The translations under genes and the position numbers were made by a program. From NCBI RefSeq assembly GCF_027484545.1, contig NZ_JAIXST010000318.1, positions 1-39,519 of the forward strand: 39,519 bases of DNA. Reading direction: 5' to 3'. Below the pieces are notes generated by a model. It was not told the origin of the DNA. It worked only from the letters and a program-made list of their open reading frames with translations, and searched no databases. This document shows positions 1-6,800 of the stretch, one piece after another (within the stretch, counting starts at the first letter, position 1; each line of letters starts with the position of its first letter). The stretch comes from Runella sp. GTDB taxonomy: Bacteria; Bacteroidota; Bacteroidia; Cytophagales; Spirosomataceae.

Positions 1-2654
1 CCTCCTTTAATGGTCCAACGCTCGTTAAATCCTTTTGAGAAGGTCAAATCCACGACATTACGAGGCATTTCATACAAATCAGGGTAAGCTTCAAAACCCA
101 CCGCGATAATACGACGACCGATTACATTGTAGAGTAAATTGATTTGCAAATCTTTCTTGGTATCGTTGTAGTTGATACCCACGTTTACGATGTATGGAGA
201 TTGACCCTGCAGCGGGCGATTATTGGACTGACCTAAGCCTTTTGAACCTAAGTTTACGCGGCTATAAATCAAGGCAGTATTGAATAGCAAACTTGTCTTT
301 TCAAAGAAGGCTGAGCCGGTTCTCAAATTTCCGAGCCCTTTCTTAATTTCAATTTCAAGACCTGTACTGTAAGCACTTTCGGCGTTGTTGGTAATAAATG
401 TTTTTGAACCTGCACCCGTTGAACCCAAATCTACCGTTGATTCGATAGGAGTCTTAAAGCTTTTATAGAAGGCAGCTACACTGATTAGCTCTGAAGGAGT
501 GGGATAATGTTCCCAACGTAAATCTACGTTTTGAACAGTTGCAATTTTCAAGTTAGGATTTCCTTCATATACCACATTGAAGTCAAAATCAAAGAACGAG
601 AAGGGAGCCAACTCCCGGAATTCGGGGCGATTGACGGTCATCCCATAAGCCGCTCTCAGCAATGTTTTTTCACTGAAGTTGTACGTGAAGTTTGCCGAAG
701 GCAACACGCTCCTAATTTTATTGTCTACTTTGGCTGCGGCACCTCCCAAAAATGCACTGTTCATTTGTTGGCGGTTATTTTCAATCCGCACGCCCACAAT
801 GGCATTGAATTGTTTGGTAAAAGGAATATTAATCAAACCATAACCCGCAATCAACGTATTTTTGGCAGTGTAGGAGTCGTTGGAGTTCGTTTGCTCATCC
901 AAACGAATACCCCCGTCATTCCGAATGTTTTGGAAAAGGGTATTGATATCACTGCTTAACAAAGAAGCATTAAAGTTGCCCCCGCGCACATATCCTAAGT
1001 TACGGGCTTTGAAGGAACGGTCTTTCAACTCATAAAATCCACCAAATTTCAATTCGATGTCTTTCTCTCCAGCTTTAATTTTTTGAGTCAAATTGGCGGA
1101 ACCTGTGTAGCCATTTTCTTTCATGGTTGAATTAAACCGGCCTAAGAAGTACGCTTGCGCTTGTCCGACAGGAATATAGATTTCTGTTTTTCCCGTTGTA
1201 GCATTCACCACGTCGGAACGATAGCGTTTATAATCAGGTTGGTCACGATACGAATTGTTGTAACCAACTACCCAATCAATGGTTGTTTTGTCATCATTAA
1301 ACTCATGTTTACCTGTGAGTTGGCCTGAATAAATTCCGCGGTATATCTGGTCGAAAGAGTGATTGTTGGGGCGATAGTTTTGTGCAATATCCTGTCCAGT
1401 ACGGAACACATAGCGTCCGTTACTGATTTGATTGAACAGGTTTTTAAATTCGATAGAGTGATTTTCATTAAAGCGAACCGCCCAGTTGTGCAAAATACCT
1501 ACTCGGTTATTACGTGAATATGCTTTGTCATCGTATTCAAATAAGGTTTCGATTTGATTGTTTGCTCCAATATTATAATCATTGCGTTGCGTATCGGTAA
1601 AAAGTCGGGTTTCGCTGAAATTGATGGCTGTAATATTGCCAATACGAATTTTTCCCAGACTCATTTTAAAGTTGCCGGTCAATGATACGCGCTGATCAGG
1701 TGAAGCACTGGACTTGACAGGTATCCACTCGTTACGTAATGAACGACCCGCTAATTCTATCAAGGCAGGATTGTTGCCAATGGCACGAATATCTTTTGGG
1801 AAATCTTTCGGTAAATCCAAATAGCCATTGTTGAAACTTGTCCAATAATTGTCTCCCTGTTTTGATGCCTGAAAGTCCTGGAAGGTTGTTCCCTGACGGA
1901 GACCCAAGCTATAATCCAAGGTAACGGTATTTGCATCAGGGATATTCTTGGTAAAGATTTTAACAATTCCTCCCGCAAATTCTCCTGGTAAGTCAGCCGA
2001 AGGTGTTTTGTAAATCAATAAGCGGTCTATCTGACCACTCGGAATCACATCAAACGAAAACGCCTTTACATCTGTTTCCATCGAAGGGGTAAAGGCATTA
2101 TGCAACATAACGTTGTTGTAGCGTTGGTTCAACCCGCGAATCGTAATGAATCGGTCACCCACGATGGTAATTCCCGGTACACGCTTCACTACCTGAGCCG
2201 CGTCTCGGTCGAGGGTACGGGCAATTTGTTGTGACGAAATTCCGCTGACAATGTTTTGGGCAGCTTTGATTTCGCTGATCACTGATACCTCGGTATTGGT
2301 TTGGCGAGTAGCTACCACTCTAACCTCTGCCAACGTGGCGGCAGCTTCTAAAAGGGAACTGTTTATTTCTGTAACTTTGTCCGCTTCTACTGTAACATTT
2401 TCTACATTTTCCGTTTTATAGGAAACATAGGTTATTTCAATGGTATATTTCCCGGCAGGTACTTTGGCAATGGAGAAAAAGCCGTTTATGTCAGTAGCCG
2501 CGCCCATTTGTGTTCCCGCAAGGCGTACGGTAGCCCCTATGAGCGTTTCTTTGTTTTTTGCATCGGTAATTGTTCCGCGAATGGTTCCTGTTTGGGAAAA
2601 AGAAAAAGCGCTATATAATAGCGCCGCTATGAATACTAAAATTTGTCGTTTCAT
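1..2654 (-). CDS. TonB-dependent outer-membrane receptor, C-terminus beyond the window
   Basis: Reading the complement gives one open frame of about 884 codons that runs off the left edge. It starts MKRQILVFIAALLYSAFSFS, a Sec signal peptide ending near SFSQ. About 80 residues of carboxypeptidase D regulatory-like fold follow (GTIRGTITDAKNKETLIGAT), then a TonB plug domain (RVPGITIVGDRFITIRG) and beta-barrel strands such as YGMTVNRPEFRELAP. The family usually has 900-950 residues, so only a few tens of residues should be missing. Such receptors import bound substrates across the outer membrane with energy from TonB-ExbBD. The ligand cannot be read from sequence, and no SusD partner is visible on the side shown. 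Two in-frame ATG codons lie upstream (at 2672 and 2690); I chose 2654 because it gives the most compact signal peptide. A TAnnTTTG promoter box lies upstream. Confidence 0.9.
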   Translation of the reverse strand, partial: MKRQILVFIAALLYSAFSFSQTGTIRGTITDAKNKETLIGATVRLAGTQMGAATDINGFFSIAKVPAGKYTIEITYVSYKTENVENVTVEADKVTEINSSLLEAAATLAEVRVVATRQTNTEVSVISEIKAAQNIVSGISSQQIARTLDRDAAQVVKRVPGITIVGDRFITIRGLNQRYNNVMLHNAFTPSMETDVKAFSFDVIPSGQIDRLLIYKTPSADLPGEFAGGIVKIFTKNIPDANTVTLDYSLGLRQGTTFQDFQASKQGDNYWTSFNNGYLDLPKDFPKDIRAIGNNPALIELAGRSLRNEWIPVKSSASPDQRVSLTGNFKMSLGKIRIGNITAINFSETRLFTDTQRNDYNIGANNQIETLFEYDDKAYSRNNRVGILHNWAVRFNENHSIEFKNLFNQISNGRYVFRTGQDIAQNYRPNNHSFDQIYRGIYSGQLTGKHEFNDDKTTIDWVVGYNNSYRDQPDYKRYRSDVVNATTGKTEIYIPVGQAQAYFLGRFNSTMKENGYTGSANLTQKIKAGEKDIELKFGGFYELKDRSFKARNLGYVRGGNFNASLLSSDINTLFQNIRNDGGIRLDEQTNSNDSYTAKNTLIAGYGLINIPFTKQFNAIVGVRIENNRQQMNSAFLGGAAAKVDNKIRSVLPSANFTYNFSEKTLLRAAYGMTVNRPEFRELAPFSFFDFDFNVVYEGNPNLKIATVQNVDLRWEHYPTPSELISVAAFYKSFKTPIESTVDLGSTGAGSKTFITNNAESAYSTGLEIEIKKGLGNLRTGSAFFEKTSLLFNTALIYSRVNLGSKGLGQSNNRPLQGQSPYIVNVGINYNDTKKDLQINLLYNVIGRRIIAVGFEAYPDLYEMPRNVVDLTFSKGFNERWTIKG

Positions 2655-2727
2655 ACGATAGACGTTCAACATTTTTTGATTGGGGGTCATGATTATTGGT
2701 GTCATAAAGTTTTTGGCTTTAACACCA

Positions 2728-2735
2728 CAAAAGTA
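2728..2735 (-). promoter_or_regulatory. Bacteroidota -7 promoter box for the TonB receptor gene
   Basis: On the minus strand this reads TACTTTTG, an exact match to the Bacteroidota sigma-ABfr -7 consensus TAnnTTTG. It lies 38 bases upstream of the outermost candidate ATG (2690). No convincing -33 TTG is seen at the usual spacing, so the call rests on the -7 box and its position. Confidence 0.5.
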
Positions 2736-3304
2736 GAAGTTCAATATTGCCTTGATATTATACTAATGTTATTAGAAAATTATATTTGGTTTTTAGTGGT
2801 GTAAACTATAATGAGTGCCTTGTTATCAGTCCCATATAGGGTAAGAGCCTTTTTCTAAATACTCTGTAAACTAAATTGGTATAGTTTTTCTATGTGTTTC
2901 TGAAAAATACAATGCAGAAACATCGTATTAAATTGACCGAATCTACGATGCTCAATACCCCGGTGTGTGTTTCGATGAGGCCCCGCTTGTTTCTTAATTG
3001 GTGATAGTGTTGAGCCTATTGTTATGCAAACAGGCAAAGTCAAAAAGGAACATTATGGCTACGAAAAGAATGGTTCATGTGCCTTATTAGCAGCCATTGA
3101 ACCCTTAACAGGAAAAAAAATGTCCAAAGTATATGCTCAAAGAACAAAGCAAGAGCATGCAATTTTTACGCAGGAATTAGTAAAACAATACCCCAATGAA
3201 ACGAAAATTCGATTAGTGCAAGACAACTTGAATACCCATAATAATAGCTCTTCTTATGAAAATTTACCGGCAGATGAGGCATTTGAATTAGCTCAAAAAT
3301 TTGA

Positions 3305-3320
3305 CGGTGCCGCCCGCGCG
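3305..3320 (+). repeat. 16-bp GC-rich insertion, copy 1
   Basis: CGGTGCCGCCCGCGCG interrupts the transposase pseudogene between GA and G of a Glu codon. Excising it restores FEFYYTPK, the conserved family sequence. It aligns without gaps to copies 2 and 3. The insertion is 94% G+C inside AT-rich host DNA. Confidence 0.75.
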
Positions 3321-3366
3321 GTTTTACTATACACCAAAATCTGCCAGTTGGCTCAAAATAATAGAG

Positions 3367-3382
3367 CGGGGTGGTCCGTGCC
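3367..3382 (+). repeat. 16-bp GC-rich insertion, copy 2
   Basis: CGGGGTGGTCCGTGCC sits immediately after the GAG codon of the predicted third catalytic acidic residue. Excision restores IIE-IEFSAL, the expected family sequence, so the boundaries are well fixed. It has the same length and orientation as the other two copies. Confidence 0.75.
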
Positions 3383-3472
3383 ATAGAATTCTCGGCATTA
3401 GCCAAGCAATGCTTAAATCGCAGAATTCGAACACAGGAGTTATTTCAAAAAGATGTTTTAATAATTGTCAAA

Positions 3473-3488
3473 CAGGGCCGCCCGTGCG
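3473..3488 (+). repeat. 16-bp GC-rich insertion, copy 3
   Basis: CAGGGCCGCCCGTGCG lies between AAA and GAA codons. Excision gives VKERNEK, which fits the IS630 C-terminal region. It shares the 13-mer GCCGCCCGyGCGG (y = C or T) with copy 1, counting one flanking G. Confidence 0.7.
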
Positions 3489-3792
3489 GAACGTAATGAG
3501 AAACAAATAAAAATTGATTGGCAGTTCTCCATTAAAAATAGCAGGAACGAAACTCAATCGGCATTACAATAAAATAAATGAGTCAAATAAATTAAGTAAA
3601 AAGGGAAAATTGCAAATAGAGCAAATAAGCAAAATCCTTTGATTATTAATGAGTTGTGAAAAATTATTTCATATTTAATTTTGCGTATTTGCTTAATTAT
3701 AGAAACTTAGTTTACAATGTAATTAATAGTAAACAATAGTTAACTAACTAATCAAAAATGAGTTTTGTACAATTTTTGTGCTGACGTTTTTG

Positions 3793-3800
3793 TACTTTTG
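3793..3800 (+). promoter_or_regulatory. -7 promoter box for the GH3 fusion gene
   Basis: TACTTTTG is an exact match to TAnnTTTG, 20 bases before the start codon at 3821, which implies a very short leader. TTTG runs occur upstream (3764-3767 and 3775-3778) but neither is at the ideal spacing. Confidence 0.5.
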
Positions 3801-3820
3801 AATCTATTTTAACTACCTAA

Positions 3821-6800
3821 ATGAAGATTCTTTTTGGAAGAGCTGTTGTTGGGCTTTTGGTAAGCGCAGGATTAATTGGTGTGTTTGGAGTATCTAAACC
3901 CGAAAGGAAAATAAAATACAAACGAGAGTCATCCTTACGCAGGGATACTCCGCCTTCTCGTGCCGTATTTGTTGAAAATCAATGGGCTGACAGTGTATTT
4001 AGTAAATTGACTGTAGAACAGAAAATCGGTCAACTGTTTATGATTGCGACGTATTCTGACCGAAACGAGACGTATTATCGGTACGTTGACCAACTCATTC
4101 AGAATTATCATATCGGTGGCCTTATCTTCTTTAAAGGCGGCCCTTCCCGTCAGGCTAAATTGACGAACCGATACCAAACAAAATCAACCGTGCCTTTAAT
4201 GATTGGAATTGATGGCGAATGGGGTTTAGGAATGCGATTGGACAGCGTTGATGATTTTCCAAAACAAATGACGTTGGGAGCTATTCAGGACAATCGGTAT
4301 GTGTATCGTATGGGATTGGAAATAGGGCGTCAATGCCAACGTTTGGGCATTACAGTCAACTTTGCCCCCGTGGCTGATATTAACTCGAATCCGCGAAATC
4401 CTGTTATCGGTTTACGGTCATTTGGAGAAGACCGTGACAACGTTACTGATAAAGCCGCTGCTTATATGAAAGGCTTGCAGCACCAACACGTCATTGCTAC
4501 TGCCAAACATTTTCCGGGTCACGGAGATACCGATACCGACTCACATTATACGTTGCCTGTACTGTCTCACTCATCGGACCGTTTGACCGAAACCGATTTA
4601 TATCCTTTCCGTAAACTCATTGCCGATAGCCTGACGGGTATCATTACGGGACATTTATACGTGCCTGTGTTAGATAACACTCCTTTACTGGCCTCTTCTC
4701 TTTCTGAAAAAGTAGTGACTGATTTGCTCAAAAAACAAATGGGGTTTCAGGGACTGGTTTTTACAGATGCGATGAATATGCAGGGAGTGAGCCGGGGACG
4801 TACGGCGGTGGAAGCCAATGTAAAAGCTCTTTTGGCAGGAAATGACATTTTATTGTATCCCGAAAGTGTGGCCGAATCCATTAAACGCATCAAAGACGGA
4901 CTGTTAAAAGGCACTATTGCCCCCGAAGTGATTGATGAAAAGGTACGCAAGATTTTACGGGCTAAATATTGGTTAGGTTTAAATCGTCTTCAGCAGATTT
5001 TACCCTCAACCCTTAATGCGGACTTGCAAACTTCGACGTTTCGTGCCCTTACCCGCGATTTATGCGAACAGGCAGTTACGCTCGTACACAATGAAAATCA
5101 CTTACTTCCCATTGCAGCCTTGGATACCTGTACCTTTGCTTCGATAGCCATTGGAGGCGGAGGAATTAATTTATTTCAGCAAACCCTCAGTCGATATGCT
5201 CCTTTCAAACATGTTGTCTATGCTGAAAAACCAACTACCAACGATGAAATAGAAAGTTTGTTGGCACAAACAGCCGGCGCTAAAGTAGTGATAGTGAGTC
5301 TGCATGATACACGTCGCAATTTCAACCGGCCTTTTACCATTACTCCCGCTACGATTGATTTGCTGAATCGTTTGCAACAGAAAGCAAGGGTAATTGTGAG
5401 CCTTTTCGGAACGCCTTATGCGCTCAAACAATTGCCAATTACGTCAGCCGTGATTTGCGCCTACGAAAACCTGCCTGATTTGGAAATCGCTGCCGCTCAG
5501 CAGATTTTTGGGGCATTGCCTTTCAAAGGTAAACTTCCAGTTTCGATTGAAGGAATGTATAATATAGGTACAGGATACGAGACAAAGGCATTGCATCGGC
5601 TGTTTTTGGGGTTGCCTGAGCAAGTGGGGATGAGTTCAGCAGGATTGAGCAAAATAGATACGCTTGTTGAGAGATCCATTCAGGCACACATCTTTCCGGG
5701 GTGTCAGGTGTTGGTGTCAAGAAAGGGGCGGGTCGTTTTTCAAAAAAATTACGGAACCTTAAGTTATGACAGTTATAATGAAAAAGTAACCAATGAAACA
5801 CTCTATGACGTAGCTTCCGTTACAAAAGTAGCGGCTACTTTGCAGGCGGTCATGTACTTACAGGAACAAAATGCGATTGACCTAAAACAAAAAGCGGCAC
5901 ACTATTTGCCTGAACTTATTGGAACCAATAAGGCCAATATTACTGTGGAAGACTTGTTACTGCACCGTTCGGGGTTAGTGGCTTTTTATCCCAAACTCTG
6001 GGAACGGACAAAAACAGGCGGCGGCGGACTGATGACCGAATATTACAGTTCACTCAAGGATAGTGTTTATTCCATGCAGATTGCGCCTAAATTGTTTTCT
6101 AAGTCTATGTTAAAAGACTCGGTGTGGAAATGGGTAGTACAATCGCCCATGAGAAAAGAAGTGAACGGAAAATATTCGTTTGTGTACAGTGATTTGGGAA
6201 TTTTAATGGTCCAAAAAGTAATTGAACGCATTACCAATCAACCTTTGGATGAATTTTTAAGCCAAAATTTTTATGAGCCTTTGGGAATGATGGAGACGGG
6301 ATTTAAACCATTGGAACGTTTTCCAGAAAGTCAGATTGCTCCGACTGAAAGCGATTTCTCGTATAGAAATCAATTGCTGAGAGGAACGGTTCATGACCAG
6401 ATGGCGGCGGTATACGGCGGAGTAGCCGGTCATGCTGGATTGTTCAGTTGCGCGTATGATTTGGCAATTTTGATGCAAATGAACTTACAAAAAGGTCTTT
6501 ACGGAGACCGACGTTATTTTCAGGAAGAAACCTTGCCTTTCTTTGCTAAAATGGCTGATAATGCAAATCACCGAGGCTTGGGCTGGGACAAAGCACCTGC
6601 CAATGGTGAAAGTAATTATGTAGCGGCTTCTGCTTCACCCCTATCATTTGGTCATTCGGGTTTTACGGGTACGATGGTGTGGGTGGATCCGAAAGAAGAA
6701 TTGGTTTTTATATTTCTTTCCAACCGCGTTAATCCTAATGCGGAGAATACGGAAATCAACCGGAAAAAGATTCGGCGACGCTTGCACGAACTGGTTTATC

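Follow-up and report, generated by a model that had tools for sequence, protein, structure and literature searches.

Three 16-bp insertions in an IS630-type pseudogene

The window analysed here, which is the whole stretch of 39,519 nt (contig NZ_JAIXST010000318.1, from a Runella sp. of the family Spirosomataceae), carries an IS630-type transposase pseudogene interrupted by three related, GC-rich segments of 16 bp. We compared these segments with the rest of the genome and with the genomes of relatives, and we read them as copies of a non-autonomous mobile hairpin of 16 bp that chooses its target by base pairing, is moved by an enzyme supplied in trans and has spread in Runella's family. We give this reading a probability of about 0.72. 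The element appears to rank among the smallest pieces of mobile DNA observed. The features concerned are the following (all on the + strand; the stroke in a target marks the joining point, and element bases are numbered from 1 to 16).

2979..3572, +, IS630-type transposase pseudogene (Pfam DDE_3) holding all three copies
3305..3320, +, 16-bp element copy 1, CGGTGCCGCCCGCGCG; target ttga/gttt; C at base 6 pairs with the flanking G (3321)
3367..3382, +, 16-bp element copy 2, CGGGGTGGTCCGTGCC; target agag/atag; T at base 6 pairs with the flanking A (3383)
3473..3488, +, 16-bp element copy 3, CAGGGCCGCCCGTGCG; target caaa/gaac; C at base 6 pairs with the flanking G (3489)

The positions and common orientation of the three 16-mers were already given in a preliminary description of this DNA and hold good; no other exact match to their consensus occurs in the window. 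That description had also argued that removal of exactly 16 bp at each site restores the family sequence. IS630 copies in a genome of the same genus (G012), at about 65% DNA identity to the pseudogene, bear this out, being empty by exactly 16 bp at all three sites (L164, L167, and L170). The aligned stretch measures 491 bases in the window and 443 in G012, a 48-base gap equal to 3 x 16, and at the site of copy 3 the flanks are identical in both (gtcaaa/gaacgtaatga). Given these 16-base gaps, the three segments are insertions and not normal coding sequence. The pseudogene has other lesions as well. Its homology extends upstream of 2979..3572 in a different frame, and by eye it has two bases beyond the G012 copies at 2979-2989, so the 16-mers are not the sole damage. 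The stretch with the two extra bases contains GGCCCCG, which is also the end of the element's complementary strand and is perhaps a remnant. An Rfam search of window positions 2000-5000 returned nothing at gathering score.

Copy number and distribution

A search of the 7.1-Mb genome with a consensus derived from the three window copies alone gave 100 exact matches (51 on the + and 49 on the - strand) against 1 for the control, the same pattern read backwards; chance is thereby excluded. The most frequent form in this genome is CGGGGCCGCCCGTGCG. Across 13 genomes of the genus, this one included, we found 1 to 100 matches each (37 in G009), where 1 or 2 matches per genome are no more than the control can yield. 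A 4.6-Mb genome (G018) holds 138 copies against 1 control match. Among named organisms, those nearest to a protein of the window are Runella species, at 70-72% identity. When the pattern was lengthened to an 18-mer comprising the element and two target bases, 72 of the 150 family genomes searched contained it, from 20 of the 36 genera, and the control matched twice; in other families of the same order, 8 of 245 genomes had one match each, against 5 with control matches.

This distribution bears on the simplest alternative, namely, that the 16-mer is an artefact of sequencing or assembly or an adapter or amplification residue. Several copies do lie at contig edges, as an artefact might. However, the matches fall to near control level outside a single family, the carriers within it include single-contig assemblies (e.g., G016 and G132), and the common variants of the element differ from genus to genus; we regard the probability of an artefact as virtually negligible. 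Viral contigs gave 16 exact matches, 14 of them in DNA of 56-74% G+C; these were not used as evidence, and viral loci were excluded from every site count. Searches of the open-licence literature in PubMed Central (PMC) found no description of the element in Runella or its family and no paper containing the 16-mer.

Target sequence and empty sites

The counts below draw on stretches around the 100 own-genome copies (1.15 Mb, including the window) and on a selection of the other genomes. Sites with less than 30 nt of flank and duplicates sharing 20-nt flanks were dropped, giving 284 unique sites. The purine that the preliminary description had noted on either side of each window copy proved to be general, occurring at position -1 in 250 of the 284 sites and at +1 in 273 (G in 211 and A in 62; the 11 others have C, and several of these sit within tandem arrays). 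The +2 base is T in 231 sites. In the own genome, a purine followed by T (RT) stands directly after the element in 76 of 101 rows, a few of which are possibly not the element, against 12.9% of dinucleotides.

The absence of a target duplication, also noted earlier from the window alone, likewise turned out to be general. For 262 sites, each flank was mapped independently onto all retrieved DNA, skipping filled homologues and sites with another same-strand copy within 40 bases, and in 36 of the 43 sites with an unfilled homologue the offset between the flanks was 0. Thus, exactly 16 bp are gained at most of these sites, with no target bases duplicated or lost. An earlier alignment set was gap-free at the junction for 79 of 251 sites (some being self-matches of tandem arrays), with other alignments only for 32 and none for 140. 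A stricter gap-free set, from which homologues whose aligned stretch held an element were dropped, comprises 45 sites, 2 of them in arrays. Gap-free sets are by themselves unable to exclude duplications, whereas the 43-site test had no such filter.

The clearest cases are reciprocal and come from insertion sequence (IS) copies shared by the own genome (G000) and G018. One site filled in G018 has an empty counterpart in G000 (98.5% identity), while two sites filled in G000 have empty counterparts in G018 (92-98% identity); the loci are L002/L054 in G000 and L236/L350 in G018. The two genomes belong to different genera of the family, yet their IS copies are almost identical and hold different inserts, so the inserts are young.

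Proposed hairpin and covariation with the target

Bases 6-9 of the element can pair with bases 14-17 around a CCGY loop (Y, pyrimidine), and base 17 is the target's own first base. Across the 284 sites, the pair 6-17 is C-G in 199, T-A in 57, T-G in 12, C-C in 9, C-A in 4, T-C in 2 and G-A in 1; its mutual information of 0.48 is the highest among all column pairs, flanks included, and none of 2000 shuffles reached that value. The second-highest mutual information belongs to the pair 7-16 (C-G in 264, G-C in 17 and C-C in 3). In the own genome alone (98 sites), the pair 6-17 is C-G in 81, T-A in 13, T-G in 3 and C-A in 1 (Fisher p 1.4e-12). Copy 2 of the window has G-C at pair 7-16 and T-G at pair 9-14.

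The preliminary description had offered three explanations for the 16-mers, of which a new type of mini-insertion is supported, and an excision footprint and a repair or recombination scar are not. On the latter accounts, the segment would be the residue of a departed longer element or would have been produced incidentally when GC-rich repeats recombined, and it is indeed GC-rich, is found in repeat-rich intergenic DNA and occurs in tandem arrays and palindromic pairs. Against this, neither the sequence nor the length of the unit changes across 20 of the 36 genera, 36 of 43 comparisons show one and the same junction, and places with the left half only show no excess that would point to a longer partner (8, against 8 for the reversed control, in the 1.15 Mb from the own genome). 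Neither would a scar predict the target rule or the covariation. We therefore consider a scar or footprint highly improbable. Artefact, repair scar and footprint were all rejected.

A mobile hairpin could work as follows. An enzyme supplied in trans would handle the element as a hairpin, the foot of which (G5-Y6) would recognize, by base pairing, the R-T dinucleotide just 3' of the joining point; C6 elements would thus go mostly to GT, and T6 elements would take AT as well. The intermediate may be single-stranded DNA, double-stranded DNA or RNA. A more specific version, in which the trans-acting enzyme is an undescribed one, base 6 pairs with the first target base, a change from C to T shifts the preference from GT towards AT, and both resulting lineages have spread in the family, is tentative, and we would put it short of even odds.

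Choice or rewriting of the first target base

In empty homologues, the +1 base is G in 44 and A in 11 cases for C6 elements and G in 7 and A in 7 for T6 elements (Fisher p 0.038), a distribution that supports target choice by pairing. At L321, which has a T6 insert, the homologues carry A at +1 (five alignments).

A number of results weigh against the mobile, pairing hairpin, and they are gathered here. Base 6 and the +1 base of empty sites are linked only modestly, at p 0.038; the stricter gap-free set alone gives p 0.58, and 0.0098 is reached when seven sites chosen by eye are added. Moreover, +1 differs between filled and empty sites in 23 of 76 homologues (a few of which are tandem-array or tRNA-repeat rows), the top count of all positions, with the next highest at 22 of 76 and a mean of about 12.8 for the other 27 positions; the match at 6-17 may therefore stem partly from rewriting of +1 at insertion. 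Positions -1, +1 and +2 lay outside the identity filter, with 12, 23 and 8 mismatches of 76. At L002_1501, a site that the rule on element-bearing homologues removed from the stricter gap-free set and that is present among the 76 homologues, the sole difference from the empty homologue near the site is at +1, G when filled and A when empty. The match at this base may reflect target choice, base rewriting, or both. In the empty-site test, 7 of the 43 sites did not have offset 0, two being off by 1 base and five having homologues 9 to 32 bases longer. As for the hairpin, predicted folding matches it in 5 of the 7 sequences tested; both T6 sequences tested were predicted to fold differently, and, set against shuffled sequences of equal composition, the predicted hairpin has no advantage in stability (z -1.22 to +0.17), so that the structure rests on covariation. 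Finally, no mobilizing enzyme was identified by the tests of Y1 and RAYT flanks, half-elements and shared genes.

Candidate enzymes

The Y1/RAYT transposases offer the closest known mechanism (RAYT, REP-associated tyrosine transposase; REP, repetitive extragenic palindrome). The 16-mer would then be a minimal REP, moved by a Y1 (HUH) transposase, whether a RAYT or an IS200/IS605 TnpA, via a single-stranded DNA hairpin with guide bases at its foot. The hairpin, the absent target duplication and the guide-like pairing with a base on the cleavage side resemble the logic of IS200/IS605 and REP elements as laid out in part of PMC6006769. In addition, Y1_Tnp genes occur in 130 of the 150 family genomes, and the element is found in 68 of these 130 and in 4 of the 20 without such a gene. 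This association is confounded, however, as 10 of the 20 Y1-less genomes come from one genus. The surroundings of about 69 of the 139 Y1 matches were examined in 75 stretches with flanks of 1.5 or 5 kb. Only 2 of these contain the exact 16-mer, neither as a flanking pair; in one it abuts the cut end of the Y1 match, and in the other it lies more than 1 kb off. One genome with 46 copies (G142) has no Y1 match at E 0.001. Nor was any bias seen with respect to the replication fork, as 29 elements run with it and 29 against it; from the account in PMC6006769, a Y1 enzyme would be expected to target the template of the lagging strand. The fork test covered six chromosomes or large contigs, the terminus being assumed to lie opposite dnaA. 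Its site lists were strand-neutral but partial, since the pattern used asked for T at +3 rather than +2, and the G016 sites came from the 18-mer search. The test omitted one G145 match unlike the element, the small-contig matches of G145, and the matches of G090, G128, and G148. Finally, the four RAYT-like genes of the own genome adjoin other, longer palindromes, and among the 14-mers flanking them none recurs 5 times in 1.15 Mb. On balance, we think it unlikely that a Y1 enzyme moves the element.

Some observations touch on these genes directly. In G009 (L134/L346), a Y1 transposase match stops where the 16-mer starts, which looks like a gene severed by the element. The four RAYT-like genes (L171-L174 in G000) have YIHxNP motifs like those given for subclass 2.6 in a portion of PMC6006769, each with a flanking palindrome of its own, and sequences related to the one next to the L174 gene have themselves been struck by the 16-mer in L067, L072 and L115.

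Places with the right half of the element only numbered 27 against 8 for the control in the same 1.15 Mb, and their neighbours were varied. Genes near the element were compared at 20 loci, taken from 19 genomes for which one or two copies were listed. Seven protein clusters were shared by 3 or 4 of the loci, and the clusters submitted to Pfam proved to be IS transposases.

Genomic setting

With the insert removed, 30 of the 100 own-genome sites fall within a frame longer than 150 aa, against 86% of 500 random points. Presumably, natural selection would clear copies from genes, leaving survivors in decayed IS and intergenic DNA. Beyond the window, and in support of a new type of mini-insertion, the same 16-mer breaks other transposase genes and occupies many intergenic sites, with clean empty sites. 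Twenty interrupted frames, chosen by eye from 37, were put to Pfam. Fifteen of them gave transposase or integrase-core families. For 2 others the sole matches were helix-turn-helix models or DUF6444, which is found together with the IS66 domains of two other proteins here, and the remaining 3 had no match.

The orientation of the element relative to these 20 frames bears on a further alternative, in which an RNA copy of the 16-mer is inserted by a reverse transcriptase at nicked targets. The top-strand hairpin permits a G-U pair at its foot, between G5 and base 18, which is T in 231 of 284 sites, and RNA-mediated spread has been proposed for the GC clusters of yeast mitochondria in a section of PMC4478555. 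Yet ten copies are sense and ten antisense, with no bias, and we judge such a route to be quite improbable.

At L081, L089, L090 and L128 of the own genome, the 16-mer lies in a repeated sequence that looks by eye like the terminal part of an IS transposase gene, both flanks being common to at least four places. As these copies have identical flanks, the element can also ride on an IS, and that IS either kept multiplying despite the insert or received help in trans, given that its multi-copy end carries the 16-mer. In G018, there are head-to-tail arrays of three to five 16-mers, some mismatched (L271, L272, L273, L276, and L278), located at copies of one dispersed repeat. Their inner junctions violate the target rule, so the arrays probably arose from slippage or multimer insertion. 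Inverted pairs of elements, 52-97 bp apart and placed symmetrically in long palindromes, occur in G098, G106, G124 and G142 (L251-L255 and L287), as if an insertion in one arm of the palindrome had been copied to the other. Lastly, five copies (L262, L298, L307, L343, and L345) lie in fragments resembling tRNA or tmRNA genes at the 3' end. At L262 there are repeats downstream of an intact tRNA-Thr, L298 is a repeat of a tmRNA gene end, and for the other three the resemblance was noted by eye, with no gene called. Four of these sites are at G/GTTYGA and L345 is at A/GTCC.

Significance

If the mobile-hairpin reading is true, 16 bp is near the lower limit for mobile DNA. The element and its target together make up 18 bases, a very small and countable model for the spread of gene-less DNA in bacteria, in which natural variants already reveal which bases matter. 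Should base-pairing target choice also be true, the 16-mer would be an insertion unit of minimal size that carries its own address, and the enzyme behind it would merit a search. The element also accounts for frameshifts that annotators of this family's IS and intergenic DNA would read as errors.

Comparison with known systems

Very small mobile repeats without genes are a kind already known, examples being small dispersed repeats (SDRs), REPs and the GC clusters of yeast mitochondria. The SDRs of cyanobacteria, from the work of Elhai and others in 2008, are reportedly dispersed repeats of about 20 bp, thought to be mobile and having no gene of their own. The Runella element resembles them as a very small, gene-less, mobile dispersed repeat; it seems to differ from them in its 16-bp length, its purine-RT target and an inner base that covaries with the target, and it occurs in Bacteroidota. 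Miniature inverted-repeat transposable elements (MITEs) are non-autonomous, dispersed elements with terminal inverted repeats and a target duplication. The Runella element is likewise non-autonomous and dispersed but has neither transposon terminal inverted repeats nor a target duplication.

Like REPs and REPINs (paired REPs), the Runella element forms a hairpin, is present in high copy, lies mainly outside genes and has no coding capacity. REPs measure 21-65 nt according to a passage of PMC6006769, and REP/REPIN elements and RAYTs are also treated in part of PMC3733652. Unlike a REP, the Runella element is 16 bp long, starts with CGGG, CGGT or CAGG and has no GTAG or CGTC tetranucleotide at one end; unlike REPs with their RAYTs, it was not seen flanking RAYT genes in the roughly half of Y1 matches covered. 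In Pseudomonas fluorescens, a passage of PMC3116915 states, no excision of REP singlets was found, whereas single Runella copies insert on their own.

In the IS200/IS605 family, a guide near the hairpin foot picks the target by base interactions with the cleavage site, as described in part of PMC6006769. The 6-17 covariation that would correspond to such a guide is strong in filled sites and modest in empty ones (p 0.038), and the Runella element differs from that family in having no inner tnpA, a single hairpin, a two-base target and no observed fork-strand bias. Yeast mitochondrial GC42, as portrayed in the relevant part of PMC4478555, is also a short GC-rich hairpin in AT-richer DNA, mobile by unknown means; it carries a putative AG target duplication, which the Runella element lacks. 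What sets the Runella element apart from these small gene-less repeats is its size, its host family, the absence of a target duplication, and the match between a base of the element and the base of its target.
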